DNA from: Actinomycetes bacterium
Lineage (GTDB): Bacteria > Actinomycetota > Acidimicrobiia > Acidimicrobiales > JAMCPL01
Length of the DNA: 64,000 nucleotides
Direction: 5' to 3'
Assembly: GCA_021846515.1 (NCBI GenBank)
Contig: JAJZWU010000001.1
Location: forward strand, 1-64,000
Part shown: positions 5,071 to 44,839 of the stretch, in pieces
How positions within the stretch are numbered: position 1 is the first letter of the stretch
Layout: every line of letters begins with the position of its first letter
Position numbers and translations under genes: made by a program
The notes under the pieces: model-generated
What the model saw: only the letters and a program-made list of their open reading frames with translations
The model's database searches: none
What the model was told of the DNA's origin: nothing

Positions 5071-8000
5071 CTACTTCCGGGATTGTCCACTGGTTTTGCA
5101 TTTCGACGAAGGTGGTACAGGGGTGCCTGTAGTCTCAAGGTTGTTCGTATTCCATAGATCATGATGAGCCATAGGCCACGGTCCATTGCTCGCGCAATTG
5201 CTGGTGGTACTCTTCCATACAAACAGATACCCTTCCCTGGTACCTGCCGCAAGCACCTTGTATCCCAATCCACCGAAGGACCCGAAAGTTGGGCTGTTCA
5301 CTACCCATCCACCTGTGAATTTAGGATATCCGGGGGCTGCCTGCCCCTTCCCGTTTACGGCTCTAATATCATAGAGACTGGATCCTTCCACAATATACGG
5401 ACCACCTCGGCCAGCATCCAAGTTGGCCACTATAGGCTGGTCAAAAAACTCCATATCATTTACCGTAGCAGGAAAGCCCTTCAGCATCTGACCCGTAGTA
5501 ACATTCCAGGCATCAAGCTGAGATACATGTGGAGTCTGGTTGGCCGGCAATGCCTCATCAAGACCTCTGCCCAAGCTCAGTGCTGGTGCTATCATATCCA
5601 ATCCTCCTGACTTCCCACTCAGCGGGGCAAAGGATGGAGCCCCAAGGGCAGGCAGACTCAAGGAGAGCAGAGCTTGGATACTGGCACCTTGAGCGGCAGG
5701 GCTACCTGGTACGGCAAAACCCATAACGTTTGGCAAACCGGATGTAGTGCCGATAGCAAACGACCCATTGGGATCAAGCAGATACGCAGGTCCGGTCGTA
5801 GCTATAACACCTACATCCAATGGGGCACTCTGTGACGATGCCGAGGTATTTGCTGTATCCGCCCCCCCGGTAGAGGTGGTAGCACCGGCGGCGCCAGAAG
5901 TAACAGTCTTGCCGGATGCAATGGGCGACTCTGTGGATTGAGCTGGTAGGGCTGCCAAAGCGGGGCTGCTGGTAACTCCATCTCCCACGTCGGGGAGCAC
6001 ACCCGGTGTCAAGTCGGCAATAGAAACCGGCCAACCAGGTAAAAATGCTCCCGGATTTGGATAACCCGGAGGACCTGGAGCACCGGCAGCAACTGGATGG
6101 AGCGAACCGTCAGGATAGACAGCATAGACCATAGAGTTGCCACCATCGGAACTTAATCCTGCCAATTTCAGTATAGCCGCCAACGATCCCAGGTTAGCGT
6201 TGGGCGTCCCTCTATATTGTTCGTTTGAACCAAGAATTAAATCGGGTGGCCCGGATCCACCATCCAGATTGCCTACAGCCGGTGTATCCATAAGCTTGGT
6301 TCCCTGCATAACGTTGGAGGAAGCAGTAAACGTTACCTGGTTATTAACAGGGTTTACACTTGCCACCTTGGATGGATTGACCACGAGTACTGGAAATCCC
6401 GGGGCCAGGGAACCATTGGGCTGCCAAGCGTAAAGGTGCCTATCCATTCCTGATGCGACAATGTCCAGCTGACCATTCCCCTGTAGATCCGCCAGAGCAG
6501 CTGCAGAAAAAATACCTCTTTGCACTCTATTGTCCGGATTGGCCACCCCGACAGCCGAAAATGCGGGATTGGTCTTCACCGGAAAGTTTGGGAGCAACTT
6601 CCCCTGGGCATCCCAGGCGTATACGTCACCATTCCAGGTGGTAGCAACCACATCCAGACAACTCCCATTGGGATGATCCCCTTGGAGGCAGGGAGCAGCC
6701 GCATTTGCCAGATCCCCTACCGCCAATCCTCCACCAATATCCAACAACTCGCCATGAGGGGGAGACACTGCCCCTGATGTGTAAGCAGCCTCCTGTAGAT
6801 GTACCCCGCTATCAAGTCCCGTAGATACCGGCCACCCAGGCAATTCCCTGCCATCGGGTAATAGTGCATGGATATTGCCGTCTGCAGTAGCTACCAATAA
6901 TACATTTTCACCGTTAGGTCCAATCGGCGCCAAAGTCGGTGATGTGTCGATAGAGCTCTTGTAGTGCACAGGCTTGCCGAAAACAAGGCTGGCTGTAGAA
7001 TGGATATACTCTGCTCTCCGCGCCATGCCGACCAGTGGTATCCGTGCATGATCTTCTACTATCACCCTTATGGTAAAGGTAAACTTGTTTGGATTGGCAG
7101 AGCCGTTACTGTTTGCCGGACCGCCCTTGAAACCAGAGCGTTGCAATGAAGTAGGAAACAGCTTAGCTACCTTGCTCAACGATATCCTTGCAAGCAGACC
7201 ACTTTTGACGCCCTTCCCCGTACCACCTGTAACTGAATACCATGCAGAAGGTTCCGGCTGCGCCCCCAGACCGACCTGTATCTGATAGCTCCATGAACAT
7301 GGTGACGATGACAACGACTCCCCCGGACATGATCTCGGTGTCCCAATGATCCCATGTAGCGCGATATTACCTGTAGTACCGTAAAGGCCGAACCATGACG
7401 TACCGGTAATTTCAGCTTGCGGCGGAATCCATCCCCGGCTCACCCATTTTACAGCCTGAGCTGCATTGATACGCCCATAGCCAGTGTAAATATTAAAGCC
7501 AGGCTGAGTGTGGTATCTGGTAGTGGTTATAGGAAGTGACGAAGTTACCTTATAGTTATTGGCCCGACCGTACGGAGGGGCTGCAGTTTGAAAATTGATA
7601 CTGCTGGCAGTCATCGTCACAATCTGTTTAACTTCATTGGCAGACAGAGCCACAGAGTTGCCGGTTACGGTCTTCAACCCCGGATAGGGAGCAAGCTTGT
7701 GCTGTACCATGGCTGCGTTGGCTTCGGACTCTATGAGGCCGGTGATTCCTGAGGCCTTGCCAGTAGCTTCAGATGAGCATGATTGGCTCTCTACCGATAC
7801 AGCAATGTTTGCGCCATAGTTGGTACATCCATTTAGATACAGATAGCTGTTTGGAGACAGCTGAGTTATAGAGCCACCCGTTCCGGACTTGGTGACACTA
7901 TTCACTACAATTACGTGAGATAGGGTAGAAGGTTCATTCTGATGCTGGGACTCTTCATCCGCAGCTGAACCTATTACGGGTACACCATGAGCCTGGGCAT

Positions 8001-9276
8001 AATCTATTGCCTGATGAGCTGTATTGGTAACATCTATCGCTCCCAGTGCCTCTTGAATAATGTTTGCCCCTGAATCGACCGCGAACAGGACACCTTCGGC
8101 AAAAGTATTACCTGAAACGATAAACGAGTCACCTACTCGAACCGGCAGTATCATGCAATTCGGGCATGCTCCTACTTCGTGAGAGATGGTATTGGCCGCA
8201 GCACCTGAATCTGATGCCTCGCCGGTGCCATGATCATAGTGAACTACATCATAAGGGTTGTTGTTATTGTTTAAGAAGTTCCAGCCGGATATGGCCTCGG
8301 TAAACCCGGCCGGGCCAGTATGCCCATAATAATAAGGGTTGGGGGTTCCATTGGGCAAGGTAGGCGTGCCAAACGTCCTTATAAGATCCATCGGTGATAT
8401 ACCCGTATATCCATACTGATCGTAAGTATGATTGGAGCAAAACCAGCCACCATAGTCCTTGGCTACTGCAGCTACTCTGGGGTCGTTGGCATACTGAAAA
8501 ACATTTATAATCCCCGAATTGTTGAGATCGTAAGGATCCGTACCGGCAAACTTAGCTCCCGAAGCCTCCAACTGGCTCTTTGTCTTGCCAGCCGGGTTTT
8601 CAGGAGGAGGTAACGCTGCGGGATTGATATAGAGTTTGCCCACTATGCCGGGATCACACCATTCAATACCCGAGTCAGTTATACCTATCAGGGTGGTCGG
8701 CGACCCGGTAGTCGTCTGCCACGCGGTATCCACGCTGTTGCCCTTTACCCCACACAGTTCCTGTGGATTGCGGTCTATATGCTTATCGGTACTTCTGGCA
8801 CTTGATAGCATCCAACTTCCCCCGCTGTTATCCCAATTTGATGGCCTCAACGGTGGCGATTGTACAGGCGTATGATCAAATTGCACCTCCCTGCCAGGGT
8901 TGGAAGTACCGGCTGGCAATGGTGGCCATGGAACCGTACCGGTCTGGCTGGCAGGCTGTCCGGGCGATGGGGAGTCGGCCGTCTGGGCTGCCGTCGGTGG
9001 CGGGCAAGATGCGGGACGGTGAGAAGTATAGTTTGCTGTTACGGCTCGCGGAAGGGTAGCCCTGGCAAATCCTGATGGGGATGCAGGTGAAGTCGAACAT
9101 GCAGCCAGAACTGTGCCAAGTAGCGCCGGAACAAGAAGGAGGCTTAACCTACCCAAGATGCTCCTGCCCAAGCGATTGCTTATTCCGTAGGTACGAGGAA
9201 CACCGTGTCCGGTATCTACACCTCTGTCAAGTCGCATTGCATTACCATTGGACATACTGAAGGCATTACCACCCAT
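5071..9276 (-). CDS. Large lipoprotein with subtilisin-like (S8) protease domain and propeller-type repeats
   Basis: This 1401-residue predicted surface lipoprotein has a hydrophobic signal ending in lipobox VLAAC, with the lipidated Cys at residue 60. A Pro/Ser-rich linker follows. The S8 peptidase domain spans roughly 180-560: Asp201 in GITDSGIEW, His349 in DHGTG, and Ser501/502 in SCSSEATGKASG. The usual Asn loop reads GSAADEES, a variant I associate with an actinobacterial S8 subgroup. From about 760 onward there are repeated blade-like units of the type DGxxxPGWPV, with LDIVASG and VVATTWNGDVYAW, ending in WPMAHHDLWNTN. This resembles FG-GAP/VCBS or PQQ-type propellers. AAAGGGG precedes the ATG. 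It has no operon partner. The target is unknown. Confidence 0.88.
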   Translation of the reverse strand: MGGNAFSMSNGNAMRLDRGVDTGHGVPRTYGISNRLGRSILGRLSLLLVPALLGTVLAACSTSPASPSGFARATLPRAVTANYTSHRPASCPPPTAAQTADSPSPGQPASQTGTVPWPPLPAGTSNPGREVQFDHTPVQSPPLRPSNWDNSGGSWMLSSARSTDKHIDRNPQELCGVKGNSVDTAWQTTTGSPTTLIGITDSGIEWCDPGIVGKLYINPAALPPPENPAGKTKSQLEASGAKFAGTDPYDLNNSGIINVFQYANDPRVAAVAKDYGGWFCSNHTYDQYGYTGISPMDLIRTFGTPTLPNGTPNPYYYGHTGPAGFTEAISGWNFLNNNNNPYDVVHYDHGTGEASDSGAAANTISHEVGACPNCMILPVRVGDSFIVSGNTFAEGVLFAVDSGANIIQEALGAIDVTNTAHQAIDYAQAHGVPVIGSAADEESQHQNEPSTLSHVIVVNSVTKSGTGGSITQLSPNSYLYLNGCTNYGANIAVSVESQSCSSEATGKASGITGLIESEANAAMVQHKLAPYPGLKTVTGNSVALSANEVKQIVTMTASSINFQTAAPPYGRANNYKVTSSLPITTTRYHTQPGFNIYTGYGRINAAQAVKWVSRGWIPPQAEITGTSWFGLYGTTGNIALHGIIGTPRSCPGESLSSSPCSWSYQIQVGLGAQPEPSAWYSVTGGTGKGVKSGLLARISLSKVAKLFPTSLQRSGFKGGPANSNGSANPNKFTFTIRVIVEDHARIPLVGMARRAEYIHSTASLVFGKPVHYKSSIDTSPTLAPIGPNGENVLLVATADGNIHALLPDGRELPGWPVSTGLDSGVHLQEAAYTSGAVSPPHGELLDIGGGLAVGDLANAAAPCLQGDHPNGSCLDVVATTWNGDVYAWDAQGKLLPNFPVKTNPAFSAVGVANPDNRVQRGIFSAAALADLQGNGQLDIVASGMDRHLYAWQPNGSLAPGFPVLVVNPSKVASVNPVNNQVTFTASSNVMQGTKLMDTPAVGNLDGGSGPPDLILGSNEQYRGTPNANLGSLAAILKLAGLSSDGGNSMVYAVYPDGSLHPVAAGAPGPPGYPNPGAFLPGWPVSIADLTPGVLPDVGDGVTSSPALAALPAQSTESPIASGKTVTSGAAGATTSTGGADTANTSASSQSAPLDVGVIATTGPAYLLDPNGSFAIGTTSGLPNVMGFAVPGSPAAQGASIQALLSLSLPALGAPSFAPLSGKSGGLDMIAPALSLGRGLDEALPANQTPHVSQLDAWNVTTGQMLKGFPATVNDMEFFDQPIVANLDAGRGGPYIVEGSSLYDIRAVNGKGQAAPGYPKFTGGWVVNSPTFGSFGGLGYKVLAAGTREGYLFVWKSTTSNCASNGPWPMAHHDLWNTNNLETTGTPVPPSSKCKTSGQSRK

Positions 9277-9494: not shown

Positions 9495-11015
9495 TCAGGA
9501 TCGCATCCAACATCCTGCGTACTCCTTCGCCAGTCCAATATCTTCAAGTTGCTCCAGACAAAGCGATACACGGCCAACAGAGCTACCCAATCGCATGACG
9601 ATCTCATCAAGAGTTAGCGGGTAAACGCTCAATTGCTCCAACGCGGAATAGAGAACACCCTCCTCTATACCGGGGAGTCTGGCATGCCCCTCCAGCCTGG
9701 AGCTTATCTCATCACAATTAGGTACCATATGATCCCGCCCAGCATGATCTTGATACGCTCCATCCTTGGAACTGGGATCACTGGCAACTGGCAATGGACA
9801 AGAAACAGTTTGACGCTTGGAACCTGGGCATCCCATACTGACAGCCGGCATTTTGTTGGATACTTTCCCCTCTTCATGGCCCGATCCGCTACCTACAACC
9901 GTAGATCTAAGCAAGTCTATGATGTCATCCGCTCCTGTAACCAGATGCGCCCTTCTGGATTTGATCAGTTCGTTACAACCATGCGATGCCAGTGAGGTAA
10001 CTGCACCCGGTACAGCAGCTACAGGAATATCACGGATTTCCGCCTGATGCACCGTATGGAGTGAGCCGCCCTCGGCATGGCTCTCCACTACTACAACGAG
10101 GGATGACATTGCCGCCATGATCCTGTTCCTTGCGACAAAACGCCATCTTGAGGCGGGCATACCAGGTGGAAGCTCTGAAATTACCACTCCGCAGGAGGTC
10201 GCAGCACGAAAAATATCCTGGTTTTTAGCAGGATACGATATATCAGGACCGCCGGCCATAACCGCCACCACGCTGCCACATTTATCCACCGGCACATCCT
10301 CGTGTATAATCCCATCTACCGAATTGTTATACACTGGCAAACTATGACTATCAGGGTTGCAACTGCCATAAGAGCCCTCATGGTCATCAGGACAAGAGCG
10401 AGCATCAGAGCCGGGAATAGCATCAAAGGTGTCATTTTCACCAGAGCTCGACAGGTTGCCAAAGTCGGTGTTGCCGTAGGTATCAGATTGATCAGCAACC
10501 TGGCTACCAGATAGCAATCTACGAATTGCATCTACAGCCCCCCGATGAGCAGCCGCGTCTATGCCGGCAGCCAATCCTGACACCACGGTAATACCTGCCT
10601 GAGCAAGTGCAAAGCCAATCTCGTAAGCTATCTTCATGCCGTAAGGGCTCGCTGATCTGGTACCGACAACACATACCATCTGGGTACGATTAAGTACCGT
10701 AGGATCTCCGTTATAAAATATCACTGCAGGAGCATTCCCATCGAAGCGCAATCTGGAGGGGTAATAAGCAGTATTGAGCGTTTCTATGCCGACACCAGAA
10801 TTATCACAAATTCTCCGCAACCCTTCAAGGACATCCGGACCGCACTTACCCTTCCATCGTTGCGCATAAGTTGCCGTATACTCTCCCTTATCTATAGCCT
10901 GCAGGAGAGATAAGGGGTCAGTGCATCCATCAAACATGATCCGCAACCTTGTTGGAGTCATCCCCTGCAGGGACGCAAGCACACCTGCTGCCATTGACTG
11001 TTCTGAAATACTCAT
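9495..11015 (-). CDS. dprA: DNA-processing protein DprA
   Basis: This protein binds single-stranded DNA and loads RecA during natural transformation. A SAM-like N-terminal part is followed by the Rossmann fold: CVVGTRSASPYG, VSGLAAGIDAAAHRGA, AVMAGGPDISYP, then VARNRIMAAMSSLVVVVES. A C-terminal winged-helix (DML1-like) domain covers about the last 60 residues (SALEQLSVYPLTLDEIVMRL). A Ser/Asp-rich insertion of about 75 residues splits the Rossmann fold after GAVDA, and the linker to the winged helix is also long. The start chosen, MSISEQS at 11015 with GGGAG about 9 nt upstream, gives 506 aa. The frame stays open upstream through a tandem repeat that supplies two more in-frame starts with the same ribosome binding site, plus a TTG at 11198. 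It follows yifB directly. Confidence 0.93.
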   Translation of the reverse strand: MSISEQSMAAGVLASLQGMTPTRLRIMFDGCTDPLSLLQAIDKGEYTATYAQRWKGKCGPDVLEGLRRICDNSGVGIETLNTAYYPSRLRFDGNAPAVIFYNGDPTVLNRTQMVCVVGTRSASPYGMKIAYEIGFALAQAGITVVSGLAAGIDAAAHRGAVDAIRRLLSGSQVADQSDTYGNTDFGNLSSSGENDTFDAIPGSDARSCPDDHEGSYGSCNPDSHSLPVYNNSVDGIIHEDVPVDKCGSVVAVMAGGPDISYPAKNQDIFRAATSCGVVISELPPGMPASRWRFVARNRIMAAMSSLVVVVESHAEGGSLHTVHQAEIRDIPVAAVPGAVTSLASHGCNELIKSRRAHLVTGADDIIDLLRSTVVGSGSGHEEGKVSNKMPAVSMGCPGSKRQTVSCPLPVASDPSSKDGAYQDHAGRDHMVPNCDEISSRLEGHARLPGIEEGVLYSALEQLSVYPLTLDEIVMRLGSSVGRVSLCLEQLEDIGLAKEYAGCWMRS

Positions 11016-11191
11016 CTTGACCGCTCCCGATCGGATAGGTTGGCCATGCCTTGTAACGGTACATGTAGATGTTCCACAAATCCACATCTTGACCGCTCCC
11101 GATCGGATAGGTTGGCCATGCCTTGTAACGGTACATGTAGATGTTCCACAAATCCACATCTTGACCGCTCCCGATCGGATAGGTTGGCCAT
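11013..11191. repeat. 72-bp tandem repeat (about 2.5 copies) over the dprA start
   Basis: Units begin at 11013, 11085 and 11157 with an exact period of 72 bp. The first two copies are complete and look identical; the third is identical for about 35 bp. Each unit carries, on the minus strand, the dprA ribosome binding site and ATG (GGGAGCGGTCAAGATG). As 72 is divisible by 3, the reading frame is kept, and each unit encodes 24 residues ending in GQPIRSGAVKM. The lack of divergence points to recent duplication. It is not a CRISPR because there are no unique spacers. Confidence 0.95.
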
Positions 11192-11226
11192 ACTGCAATT
11201 TGGTAGCAATTCGGTATCTGGATTGT

Positions 11227-12759
11227 TCATCTTAACTGCTCCGCATTGAACATTGCCCGAGCTGCTCTTAGTTGCAACGCTTCAGCCACATGTTCCACCT
11301 TGACAGGTGGATTCTCTCCTGCCAGGTCGGCAATGGTAAGGGCCACTCTACGCACACTATCCATCCCTCTTGCTGAAAGGACACCGCTTCTGAGTCTACG
11401 CTCTATCAATCCCATCGCCTCGGGAGTCAGCGGAGCAAGTTGTTCAAGCGCCCAAGATGGAATACGCGAGTTGCAGGCTACTCCCCTGTCGCGTGCAATC
11501 TCACGCGCCATACTGACTCGAAAGGCTACAATACTGCTTGGTTCTCCCGGAGCTATTGAGAGCAACTCATCTACCTGGGGTTTGGCAAGAGATATACTGA
11601 GATCGAAGCGGTCGAGTAACGGACCCGACAACCTTGCAAGATACCGCTCTCTCGCGCTCCTCGAACATCTACAACTACCCGGAGTCATTCCCTCCCCGCA
11701 GGGACATGGGTTTGTAGCCGCCACAAGCAGAAACCTCGCCGGCAACACTGCAGACACCTTAGCCCTGCTAATCCGCACCAATCCATCTTCAAGCGGCTCA
11801 CGTAATGAATCCAATACGATCCTGGGAAACTCACCAAGCTCATCTAAAAACAGCACCCCCAAATGGGCCAGTGAAATCTCACCCGGTCGCAACCAAGAGC
11901 TGCCTCCCCCTACAATCGAAACGGAGGTGGCAGTATGATGAGGGGCTCGCAAGGAGGGGCGTGAAGGCAGGACATCCCATTCCACCGGCGATCCTGATGC
12001 CGAATATATACGAGCCACTTCCAACGACTCATCGTAACTCAATGATGGCAACACTCCCGGTAGCCTGCTGGCAAGCATAGTCTTTCCGGAGCCTGGAGGA
12101 CCCACCATAAGTAGATGGTGCCCTCCCGCCGCCGCTATCTCGACTGCCCGCCTCCCCACTGCTTGGCCTCTTACATCCGCAAGATCAAGGTAACAGCCGT
12201 TTATACCAGCATCCACTATCTGGGAACCGTCAATAGATTCAGTCGCACTCCACTCCTCCTCGCCCTTCAATGCCCTCACCAACTGCTTTAACGAGGTTGC
12301 ACCGTGTACCTCCCTCGTCGGAATAACAGAAGCCTCTCTAAGACACGATGCCGGCACTACCGCTTTAGTTGCATCGCAGGCACTTACAAGAGAGATCACT
12401 CCGGGGAACTCGCGAAGGGATCCATCGAGGCCGAGTTCACCAAAAAAAGAGTGCCCCTCCACTAGGGCACGGTCAACCTGGCCACTGGCCGCTAACATAC
12501 CTATAGCAATCGGCAGGTCCAGCGCTGCACCTGCTTTTCGTACGGCAGAGGGGGCCAGATTAACCGTTACCCGATTGCTACACCATTTGAAGCCGCTTGT
12601 AAGCAATGCTGCCCTTACCCGATCGCGTGACTCTCTTACTGCCGCATCCGGTAAACCAACAATATTGAATCCCGGGATACCACTGGAAATATGCACCTCA
12701 ACCGATACTGGACTCCCATCCACTCCAAGAAGTATCGCCGAAGGAATACTGGCTATCAT
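11227..12759 (-). CDS. YifB/ComM family Mg-chelatase-like AAA+ ATPase
   Basis: This 510-residue protein is of the ComM type. In other bacteria ComM is a hexameric branch-migration helicase that helps integrate DNA during natural transformation. The N-terminal ChlI-like domain (GIPGFNIVGLPDAAVRESRDRVRAAL, then NLAPSAVRKAG) is followed by the AAA+ core with Walker A GPPGSGKTMLA, the Walker B region GVLFLDELGEF, and the zinc-type cluster CPCGEGMTPGSCRCS. The C-terminal Mg-chelatase helical domain reads LSARGMDSVRRVALTIADL. AAGGAG lies 6 nt before the ATG. The stop is followed closely by dprA on the same strand. Confidence 0.95.
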   Translation of the reverse strand: MIASIPSAILLGVDGSPVSVEVHISSGIPGFNIVGLPDAAVRESRDRVRAALLTSGFKWCSNRVTVNLAPSAVRKAGAALDLPIAIGMLAASGQVDRALVEGHSFFGELGLDGSLREFPGVISLVSACDATKAVVPASCLREASVIPTREVHGATSLKQLVRALKGEEEWSATESIDGSQIVDAGINGCYLDLADVRGQAVGRRAVEIAAAGGHHLLMVGPPGSGKTMLASRLPGVLPSLSYDESLEVARIYSASGSPVEWDVLPSRPSLRAPHHTATSVSIVGGGSSWLRPGEISLAHLGVLFLDELGEFPRIVLDSLREPLEDGLVRISRAKVSAVLPARFLLVAATNPCPCGEGMTPGSCRCSRSARERYLARLSGPLLDRFDLSISLAKPQVDELLSIAPGEPSSIVAFRVSMAREIARDRGVACNSRIPSWALEQLAPLTPEAMGLIERRLRSGVLSARGMDSVRRVALTIADLAGENPPVKVEHVAEALQLRAARAMFNAEQLR

Positions 12760-35668: not shown

Positions 35669-36643
35669 ATGCTGCCTTCCGCTCCTCCTCCACCTTCTAC
35701 TCCCTCTACTCCTCCCACGCCTGCATCTCCCTCCACTCCTTCTCCACCTTCTCCTCCTTCGTCTGGCTCATCTGGTCCGCCCAGATGGATTCCACACCCT
35801 TCTGAAAGGAGGTTCCTCTCGGAAATGGGCAGTTTACTCCGTACCGAGTTGGCCAAGCAGCTACCCCGGCCCAGAACCTGGCTCACTCTGGCATTTATGG
35901 CATTTATCCCTATGCTAATCACCGTAGCTTTTGCCTTGGGTGGAACCGCACATGCTGCTCAATCTTCCATAGCCAATGACTTTCTATTGGTTGCCACCAA
36001 ATCAGGTCTGGATATGCCACTGGCCGCACTTGACGCAACAGCTCCATTTTTGCTGGTTGTAGCAGCATCGCTCTTTGCAGGAGAAGCCATAACCGCTGAG
36101 GCGTCTTGGGGAACTCTTCGTGCATTGCTGTCAAAGCCCATCTCAAGAAGTCGTTTACTTGCCAGCAAGGCAATTGTTGGAACAAGTCTAATCGTAGTTG
36201 CATGCCTGGCTGTCTCTGTTTTCGGTCTTATATCAGGAGCAATCGCATTTGGCTGGCATCCTATAGTGACTCCAGATGCCGTTACGTTCAGCCAAGAAGC
36301 TACCCTGGTAAAGATCCTGGTAGCCACCCTGTATACCGTAATATCCCTGGCATCATTGGCATCATTTTCATTCTTTATTTCGACAGTTACTGATTCGACC
36401 ATAGGCGCGGTTGCTTCAGGAACAGGACTGGCCATCGTCTCTGAGATACTTGACAATATACCCGCCCTGGGACACTTAAGAGTAATACTGCCCACCCACT
36501 ATATGCTTGCGTGGGGCGAACTTTTTATACAACCAGCAAACTGGACTCCGATGTTAATTGGAATAGCCGTGCAATTACCCTATACAATCATCTTCTGTGC
36601 ACTGGCATGGTGGTGGTTTACGCGAAAGGATATTCTTAGTTGA
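35669..36643 (+). CDS. ABC-2 type transporter permease with Pro-rich N-terminus
   Basis: This membrane subunit partners the preceding ATPase. The first 45 residues are almost only Pro, Ser and Thr (PPPPSTPSTPPTPASPS). They are followed by a cytoplasmic helix (LRTELAKQLPRPRTWL) and six hydrophobic segments, the first being LAFMAFIPMLITVAFALGG and the last IAVQLPYTIIFCALAWWWF. WGTLRALLSKPISRSRLLASK is typical for the NatB/YhaP-like fold. The stop overlaps the TTG start of cofD (TTGA), so transport and F420 genes may be co-transcribed. Confidence 0.88.
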   Translation: MLPSAPPPPSTPSTPPTPASPSTPSPPSPPSSGSSGPPRWIPHPSERRFLSEMGSLLRTELAKQLPRPRTWLTLAFMAFIPMLITVAFALGGTAHAAQSSIANDFLLVATKSGLDMPLAALDATAPFLLVVAASLFAGEAITAEASWGTLRALLSKPISRSRLLASKAIVGTSLIVVACLAVSVFGLISGAIAFGWHPIVTPDAVTFSQEATLVKILVATLYTVISLASLASFSFFISTVTDSTIGAVASGTGLAIVSEILDNIPALGHLRVILPTHYMLAWGELFIQPANWTPMLIGIAVQLPYTIIFCALAWWWFTRKDILS

Positions 36644-38765: not shown

Positions 38766-38902
38766 GTAGGCCGCTTAGGCAATGCACTTCGCCTGTTTCT
38801 ATCCTTGAAAGTTAACCGGCCTTCCAAGCAGCTTTGCGTATAGATTCAGGTGAATACCATCACACTATTTGCGGGACGCTACACTAGAATTGTGAATATA
38901 GT

Positions 38903-43360: not shown

Positions 43361-44839
43361 ATGGCTAACGGTTCATCATGGCTCAGACCTTACTCGGCTG
43401 GAGAAATCATAGATATATCATTCAAGTTGTACAGATCCATGTTCGGCCAGATGATAAAAGCCGTAGCAGTAGTCGCAGTTCCCGCAGCCATACTGGAAGG
43501 ACTACTGACGATGTCTGCACTGCCCCATGGCTTTTTCAGCCACGGGTTGGCAGGGTTCAGCTCATCATCTGTTGCAGGCGCTGGGATATCCACCACCGCA
43601 TCATCATCCAATCTCCAACAGGTGGCTTCACTTATAAACGACATACTGGGTATTGCAGTAAGCGGGATCGCTTCCGCAGCCTGCTTCAAACTCGTGGCCG
43701 ACGCTTACCTGTCAGTACAGCCAAACTGGCGAGCCAGCATATCTTTCGGCCTTAAGCGCCTTCACTCTGTGCTGTGGGTAACCCTGGAATCCACGGTGAT
43801 ACCATTTATACCCTTGATCGCCGTAATACTGGGGGCTATTGTAATCGGCTCCAGATCGCTCCTGGCCGGGGTGATTATAGGAGTTGTACTAGGTCTGTTC
43901 TCTCTGGCGATAGTCGTGTGGCTATGGGTGGGATGGCGTTTCAACGTCATCTCGTTGATAGTAGAGGGAGTAAAAGGCAGGCATGCGCTGGGACGATCAC
44001 TATTTCTGGTGCAGGGACGGTGGTGGCCGACATTTGGCATCCAGCTATTGATGCAGCTTATAGTCGGAATTATCGGAGGGGTAATAAGCGTGCCGCTTGG
44101 CTTGGGCGGAATAGTAATACTTGCGCGTGGCTACACCGCTGCTGGCCTGCTGCTCGTGATGATTGGATCAGTAATCAGCAACGTGCTGTTGATGCCTCTA
44201 TTGGCATCTATGCTGGCGGTACTCTATTTCGACCTTCGTGTCCGCAAAGAGGGACTGGATCTCGCCATAATGGCTCGAGAGCTTGAAATGGGAGATATTG
44301 GAGGTTTTGCGATGGCAGGAGTCCCGGGATTCGCCCCCAAGCGTGCATACGCTCAATATCCATACCCTCAAGGTGTTTATACGCAGCAATACCCGTATCC
44401 CCAGCAACCCGGTCAACAATACCCGCAATACCCGTATCCCCAGGGTAATTACCCTCAGCAACCCTACCCCCAACAACAGCAGTATCCTCATGACCCCTAC
44501 CAGCAGGGCAGCTACCCCCCGTACCAGCAGTCTCCCGATCCGCAGTACTCCTACCCGCAGTATCCGCAGTATCCTCAGCAGTACTCCCCCGAAGGCGTTG
44601 CGCAGCAAGCGCCGACCGGCTATTTCAATCCGCTATCCGATAACCCCTCCAGTTACCTTCCCCCGGCACCCGGCAGTTACCCGCCACCTTCCGGTAATTA
44701 CCCACCGCCCGCCGGCAGCTACCCGCCACCTTCCGGCTACCCCGGCCAGACAATACCCAATGCACCCAACACCCCACAGCCGCCGCCCACGCACGAAGAT
44801 ACCTGGCCGGAACAGCTACCGCCTTCCGGTCACACGTAA
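43361..44839 (+). CDS. Polytopic membrane protein with Pro/Gln/Tyr-rich cytoplasmic tail
   Basis: This 492-residue protein starts with RPYSAGEIIDISFKLYRSMFG, typical of the N-terminal amphipathic region of the glycerophosphodiesterase-like membrane domain family. About six hydrophobic helices extend to residue 295. From about 325 to the end the sequence is a low-complexity array of PYPQ, QQYPQYP and SYPPP units. Such tails are common in actinobacterial membrane proteins and may bind partners or phase-separate; that is inference. It sits within the MoxR cluster, 10 bp after the SpoIIM gene and 2 bp before a DUF4129 gene. Confidence 0.82.
   Translation: MANGSSWLRPYSAGEIIDISFKLYRSMFGQMIKAVAVVAVPAAILEGLLTMSALPHGFFSHGLAGFSSSSVAGAGISTTASSSNLQQVASLINDILGIAVSGIASAACFKLVADAYLSVQPNWRASISFGLKRLHSVLWVTLESTVIPFIPLIAVILGAIVIGSRSLLAGVIIGVVLGLFSLAIVVWLWVGWRFNVISLIVEGVKGRHALGRSLFLVQGRWWPTFGIQLLMQLIVGIIGGVISVPLGLGGIVILARGYTAAGLLLVMIGSVISNVLLMPLLASMLAVLYFDLRVRKEGLDLAIMARELEMGDIGGFAMAGVPGFAPKRAYAQYPYPQGVYTQQYPYPQQPGQQYPQYPYPQGNYPQQPYPQQQQYPHDPYQQGSYPPYQQSPDPQYSYPQYPQYPQQYSPEGVAQQAPTGYFNPLSDNPSSYLPPAPGSYPPPSGNYPPPAGSYPPPSGYPGQTIPNAPNTPQPPPTHEDTWPEQLPPSGHT

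Follow-up and report, generated by a model that had tools for sequence, protein, structure and literature searches.

A tandem repeat over the dprA start probably records repeated duplication of the overlapping comM-dprA junction

A 72-bp tandem array lies over the translation start of dprA in the 64,000-nucleotide stretch of DNA analysed here (hereafter the window). Its history is probably one in which a junction of overlapping genes was duplicated repeatedly, likely with captured filler sequence, and not that of a regulatory switch. A second open frame, which was absent from a preliminary description of this DNA, connects the comM stop with the dprA start as an uninterrupted open reading frame (ORF). 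We think it reasonably likely that junction duplication, a relay through this small ORF, and the capture of filler, with the repeats themselves near neutral, make up the whole explanation.

Results

Tandem Repeats Finder assigns the array at 11013-11191 a period of 72, 2.6 copies, and a 98% match (reported span 11006-11191), which confirms the period and the position of the roughly 2.5 copies previously placed over the dprA start (Table 1). Read on the minus strand from 11191 to 11013, the layout is A-B-A-B-A, where A is a 35-bp unit (ATGGCC...AAGATG; ATGGCCAACCTATCCGATCGGGAGCGGTCAAGATG) and B is a 37-bp unit (TGGATTTGTGGAACATCTACATGTACCGTTACAAGGC). The preliminary description had also remarked that the copies appear identical, and successive periods do agree exactly across 107 bp. 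All A copies terminate in GGGAGCGGTCAAGATG, in which an SD-like motif (GGGAG) accompanies an ATG that is in frame with dprA. Thus, the presence of a ribosome binding site and an in-frame start codon in each copy, as described earlier, can be read directly from the sequence. The 25-base unit core has a chance expectation of 0.00 occurrences in the window, and no repeat matches arose in 422 kb of sequence simulated under a first-order Markov model.

Table 1. Features at and around the comM-dprA junction (positions in the window).
Feature	Position	Strand	Basis
comM/yifB, Mg-chelatase family ATPase, upstream gene	11227..12759	-	PF01078 E 3.3e-81, PF13541, PF13335
Bridging small ORF, 72 aa; ATG overlaps comM stop, TGA overlaps dprA start	11012..11230	-	Translation; counterparts in G001-G004
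72-bp tandem array A-B-A-B-A	11013..11191	-	Tandem Repeats Finder and sequence
A copy 1, SD-like GGGAG, ATG 11159-11157	11157..11191	-	Sequence
B copy 1, 34/37 bp resembling antisense dnaJ	11120..11156	-	30/34 versus own dnaJ, E 1.8e-5
A copy 2, ATG 11087-11085	11085..11119	-	Sequence
B copy 2, identical to B copy 1	11048..11084	-	Sequence
A copy 3, last bases are the dprA start codon	11013..11047	-	Sequence
dprA, proposed start ATG 11015-11013 (MSISEQ...)	9495..11015	-	DNA_processg_A domain, PF02481 E 2.4e-56; sibling frames closed upstream

Neither the array, searched in 58 further genomes from relatives, nor a 26-base core of B, searched in viral contigs, has a match, and therefore a mobile repeat was rejected. 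A structured RNA was also rejected, as the array RNA is not unusually structured (fold z-score -1.3) and has no above-threshold Rfam match. Other repeats in the window include a member of a dispersed repeat family at 38847-38888 (up to about 113 bp, with more copies in L155, L158, and L170), as well as degenerate tandem repeats at 35678-35757 and 44670-44737 with periods of 27 and 21 bp, respectively. Positions 5071-9276 encode a large, probably secreted protein of 1401 aa that, by eye from its translation, resembles a subtilisin-type protease.

On the evidence of reading frames and homology, the last ATG (11015) is the most likely start of DprA. In the sibling genomes G001 and G003, the dprA frame is stopped just upstream of the last ATG, which points to this codon as the conserved dprA start, and DprA homology in both begins at or near it. 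For annotation purposes, the DprA start would therefore belong at this ATG rather than at the upstream TTG (11198). On a rival reading, which follows the preliminary description apart from its switch, the repeats instead multiply the dprA start, such that initiation at the ATGs at 11159, 11087, and 11015 yields three nested forms or a higher initiation rate. This proposal would fit the recurrence of the same SD-like GGGAG and ATG from copy to copy, as well as a dprA frame that is open throughout the array (there is no stop from the first A-copy ATG on, and the frame is open as far back as the TTG). However, stops close off the extended forms in G001 and G003, the extension is without a counterpart among relatives, and both upstream ATGs lie inside a frame that is likely crossed by ribosomes. 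We consider multiplied initiation rather unlikely for these reasons. What survives of the nested forms is that a 24- or 48-residue extension is possible from the sequence. Given the closed sibling frames and the point at which homology begins, such an extended DprA would be a by-product confined to this genome, and it could possibly be recognized by peptides of MWICGTSTCTVTR.

A different peculiarity lies within the DprA domain, where residues of about 225-309 (window 10272-10525) look like a Ser/Asp/Gly-rich insertion. The homologous blocks flanking this putative insertion are nearly adjacent in many relatives, and it has weak DNA similarity to G001.

The relatives examined are mostly metagenome-assembled genomes labelled Actinobacteria, Actinomycetes, or Acidimicrobiales, among which G001 to G004 are the nearest relatives compared and belong to the same genus. 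A possible dprA start is located at the comM stop (NTGA overlap, -1) in 53 of 77 related comM-dprA loci, and within about 30 nt of that stop in 20 further loci. The exceptions number four, and two of these are the same-genus G001 and G004. In G003, the sequence surrounding the comM stop matches that surrounding the dprA start at 31 of 34 bases, 92 nt apart, and the comM-end and dprA-start copies in G001 match at 26 of 31 bases and lie 143 nt apart, and in neither case do any of 500 shuffles reach the score. Near-identical copies of this kind are explained by a tandem duplication across the overlap, and the junction is thus duplicated in both G001 and G003. The corresponding copies in the present genome match at 14 of 16 bases, 215 nt apart, which is a weak signal alone (1 of 500 shuffles reaches the score), and junction duplication here is moderately supported.

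The start-to-start distances of 92, 143, and 215 nt are all 2 mod 3. As a consequence, the second TGA is in frame with the first ATG, and the small ORF ends at the dprA start. Because 215 equals 71+72+72 and 143 equals 92+51, the later additions consist of whole codons. This pattern is suggestive of selection for a relay, although with few independent events it is not proof.

The bridging ORF of the present genome overlaps each of its neighbors by four bases. Its ATG (11230) overlaps the comM TGA (11229-11227), and its TGA (11014-11012) overlaps the dprA ATG (11015), such that the stop/start overlap typical of an ATGA termination-reinitiation pair occurs at both ends. Within this ORF, the 72-bp units are 24-codon repeats. 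Its sibling counterparts measure 47 aa in G001, 31 aa in G003, 58 aa in G004 (where the ORF extends a few bases into dprA), and 9 aa in G002. Further frames across the array are likewise open, and so an open frame by itself says little about whether the bridging ORF is translated.

Alternatively, the bridging ORF could act through a functional small protein instead of serving as a relay, with the repeat diversifying its product. Its occurrence at the same place in five same-genus genomes would be consistent with such a function. However, its length ranges from 9 to 72 aa, its sequence is little conserved, and its tail is accounted for by the copied comM end, all of which make a functional product improbable.

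The content of the duplicated junctions provides additional clues. Unit B aligns in antisense with the C-terminal part of the genome's own dnaJ at 30 of 34 bases (E 1.8e-5), which is a short match of moderate significance if the whole genome is taken as the search space. Three of the four mismatches are synonymous, and the plus strand of B encodes VTVHVDVPQ, which are exact DnaJ residues. The G001 junction (L004:1330-1465) carries 37 bp of that genome's own der, in the sense orientation (95%, E 1.5e-9). This fragment is located between two copies of a 14-base flank and ends at the duplicated flank. Both the dnaJ and der matches stop no more than three bases from the insert edges. A match elsewhere in the same genome, as expected of templated filler, is therefore found for der in G001 and at a moderate level for dnaJ here. 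Judged by these alignments, the der match is strong and a dnaJ origin of B is moderately supported, and the most plausible reading of the two pieces is templated filler, picked up as the junction was duplicated.

The G004 insert yielded no significant source, and no clear microhomology is evident by eye at the insert edges where template switches would have occurred. In a 422-kb sample from this genome, few short ectopic matches occur, mostly tandem or dispersed repeats, and thus genome-wide capture of fragments was rejected. The idea that the B copies control dnaJ in antisense was set aside because the der fragment in G001 is in the sense orientation and B carries four mismatches.

The preliminary description further suggested phase variation of a competence gene, and neither part of this suggestion fares well. 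A phase-variable repeat, in which slippage alters copy number and so switches or tunes DprA, could draw on adjacent copies that are identical over 107 bp and able to recombine. However, 72 bp corresponds to 24 codons, and so the gain or loss of whole units would disrupt neither the dprA frame nor the bridging ORF, which makes on/off phase variation unlikely. Moreover, ComEC (PF03772) has no match in six genomes of the family (G000-G005), though dprA and comM are present. The missing match to this channel renders the competence-gene label doubtful and also weighs against a phase-variable repeat, which we regard as highly improbable. Equally improbable is a misassembly of this draft, metagenome-like genome of 77 contigs, since sibling genomes also carry lineage-specific in-frame duplications at the same junction and short-read assemblers collapse such tandem copies more often than they create them.

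Discussion

The following history would reconcile these observations. In the ancestors of this genus, the dprA start would have been positioned at the comM stop as an ATGA overlap, with dprA translated by termination-reinitiation. A tandem duplication across this junction would then have shifted the dprA start in use to a downstream position, leaving between the copies a small ORF composed first of the old dprA start and then of a copied comM tail ending in comM's own stop motif. By ending at the duplicated ATGA, the small ORF would permit a two-step ribosome hand-over from comM to the small ORF and from there to dprA. Later duplications would have extended the small ORF by whole codons, amounting to two 72-bp units here and 51 bp in G001.

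Each lineage would also have acquired about 35 bp of filler with similarity to a housekeeping gene, namely dnaJ in this genome and der in G001, and template switching in replication or repair is the simplest route. On this account, synthesis across the junction would have moved mistakenly to another template for about 35 bases before going back. In this genome, one more B-A duplication would have followed. The main start of DprA synthesis would be the last ATG, with the repeats themselves probably near neutral. We infer the template switch, the translational relay, and this neutrality.

Other routes to the inserted fragments are not favored. Ectopic spacer integration by Cas1-Cas2 (CRISPR-type) is disfavored because Cas1 was not found in this genome (G000) or in G001, whose drafts are 92% and 77% complete, respectively. 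Ku-dependent end joining is disfavored because Ku was not found in this draft genome. The same holds for transformation as a source of fragments, given that ComEC was not found and that the G001 insert fits that genome's own der. Because the genomes are drafts, these negatives carry limited weight.

If the proposed history is true, then an overlap-coupled gene pair tolerates growing duplications, and the duplicated overlap itself makes the bridging ORF. In two sibling-species cases, short gene fragments were apparently captured at the same duplicated junction. One could speculate further that the genus has a hotspot at its comM-dprA junction, where duplication repeatedly captures pieces of about 35 bp from housekeeping genes and builds translationally coupled small ORFs. 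We hold this broader proposal to be doubtful, and, if true, it would represent a way for new small proteins to arise between overlapping genes.

Comparison with known systems

Identical tandem copies at a gene start are reminiscent of phase variation by VNTRs or simple sequences. However, the period here is a multiple of 3, and the frames are independent of copy number. In short-patch double illegitimate recombination in Acinetobacter, a short intragenomic segment is placed at an unrelated site and sequence is substituted. The junctions described here likewise hold a short intragenomic segment at an unrelated site, but their flanks are also duplicated, and ComEC was not found.

Another comparison is with tandem duplication with templated filler, which involves template switching and for which complex insertions are reported from human genomes (for example, PMC5120786). 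As in such cases, a duplicated flank is found beside about 35 bp resembling an unrelated site in the same genome, and this is seen in two sibling species. Relative to those cases, the present example is bacterial, involves one small junction, has little or no visible microhomology, and comes from a genome in which Ku was not found.

The coupling of overlapping genes through termination-reinitiation is experimentally established in general (PMC6728339). As in the ATGA/TGATG overlapping pairs of that work, the comM stop overlaps the ORF start and the ORF stop overlaps the dprA start, with an SD-like motif upstream. The difference is an intervening small ORF that appears to be newly formed, which creates two hand-overs. 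By analogy with such pairs, the bridging ORF would keep the translation of comM and dprA coupled through both.
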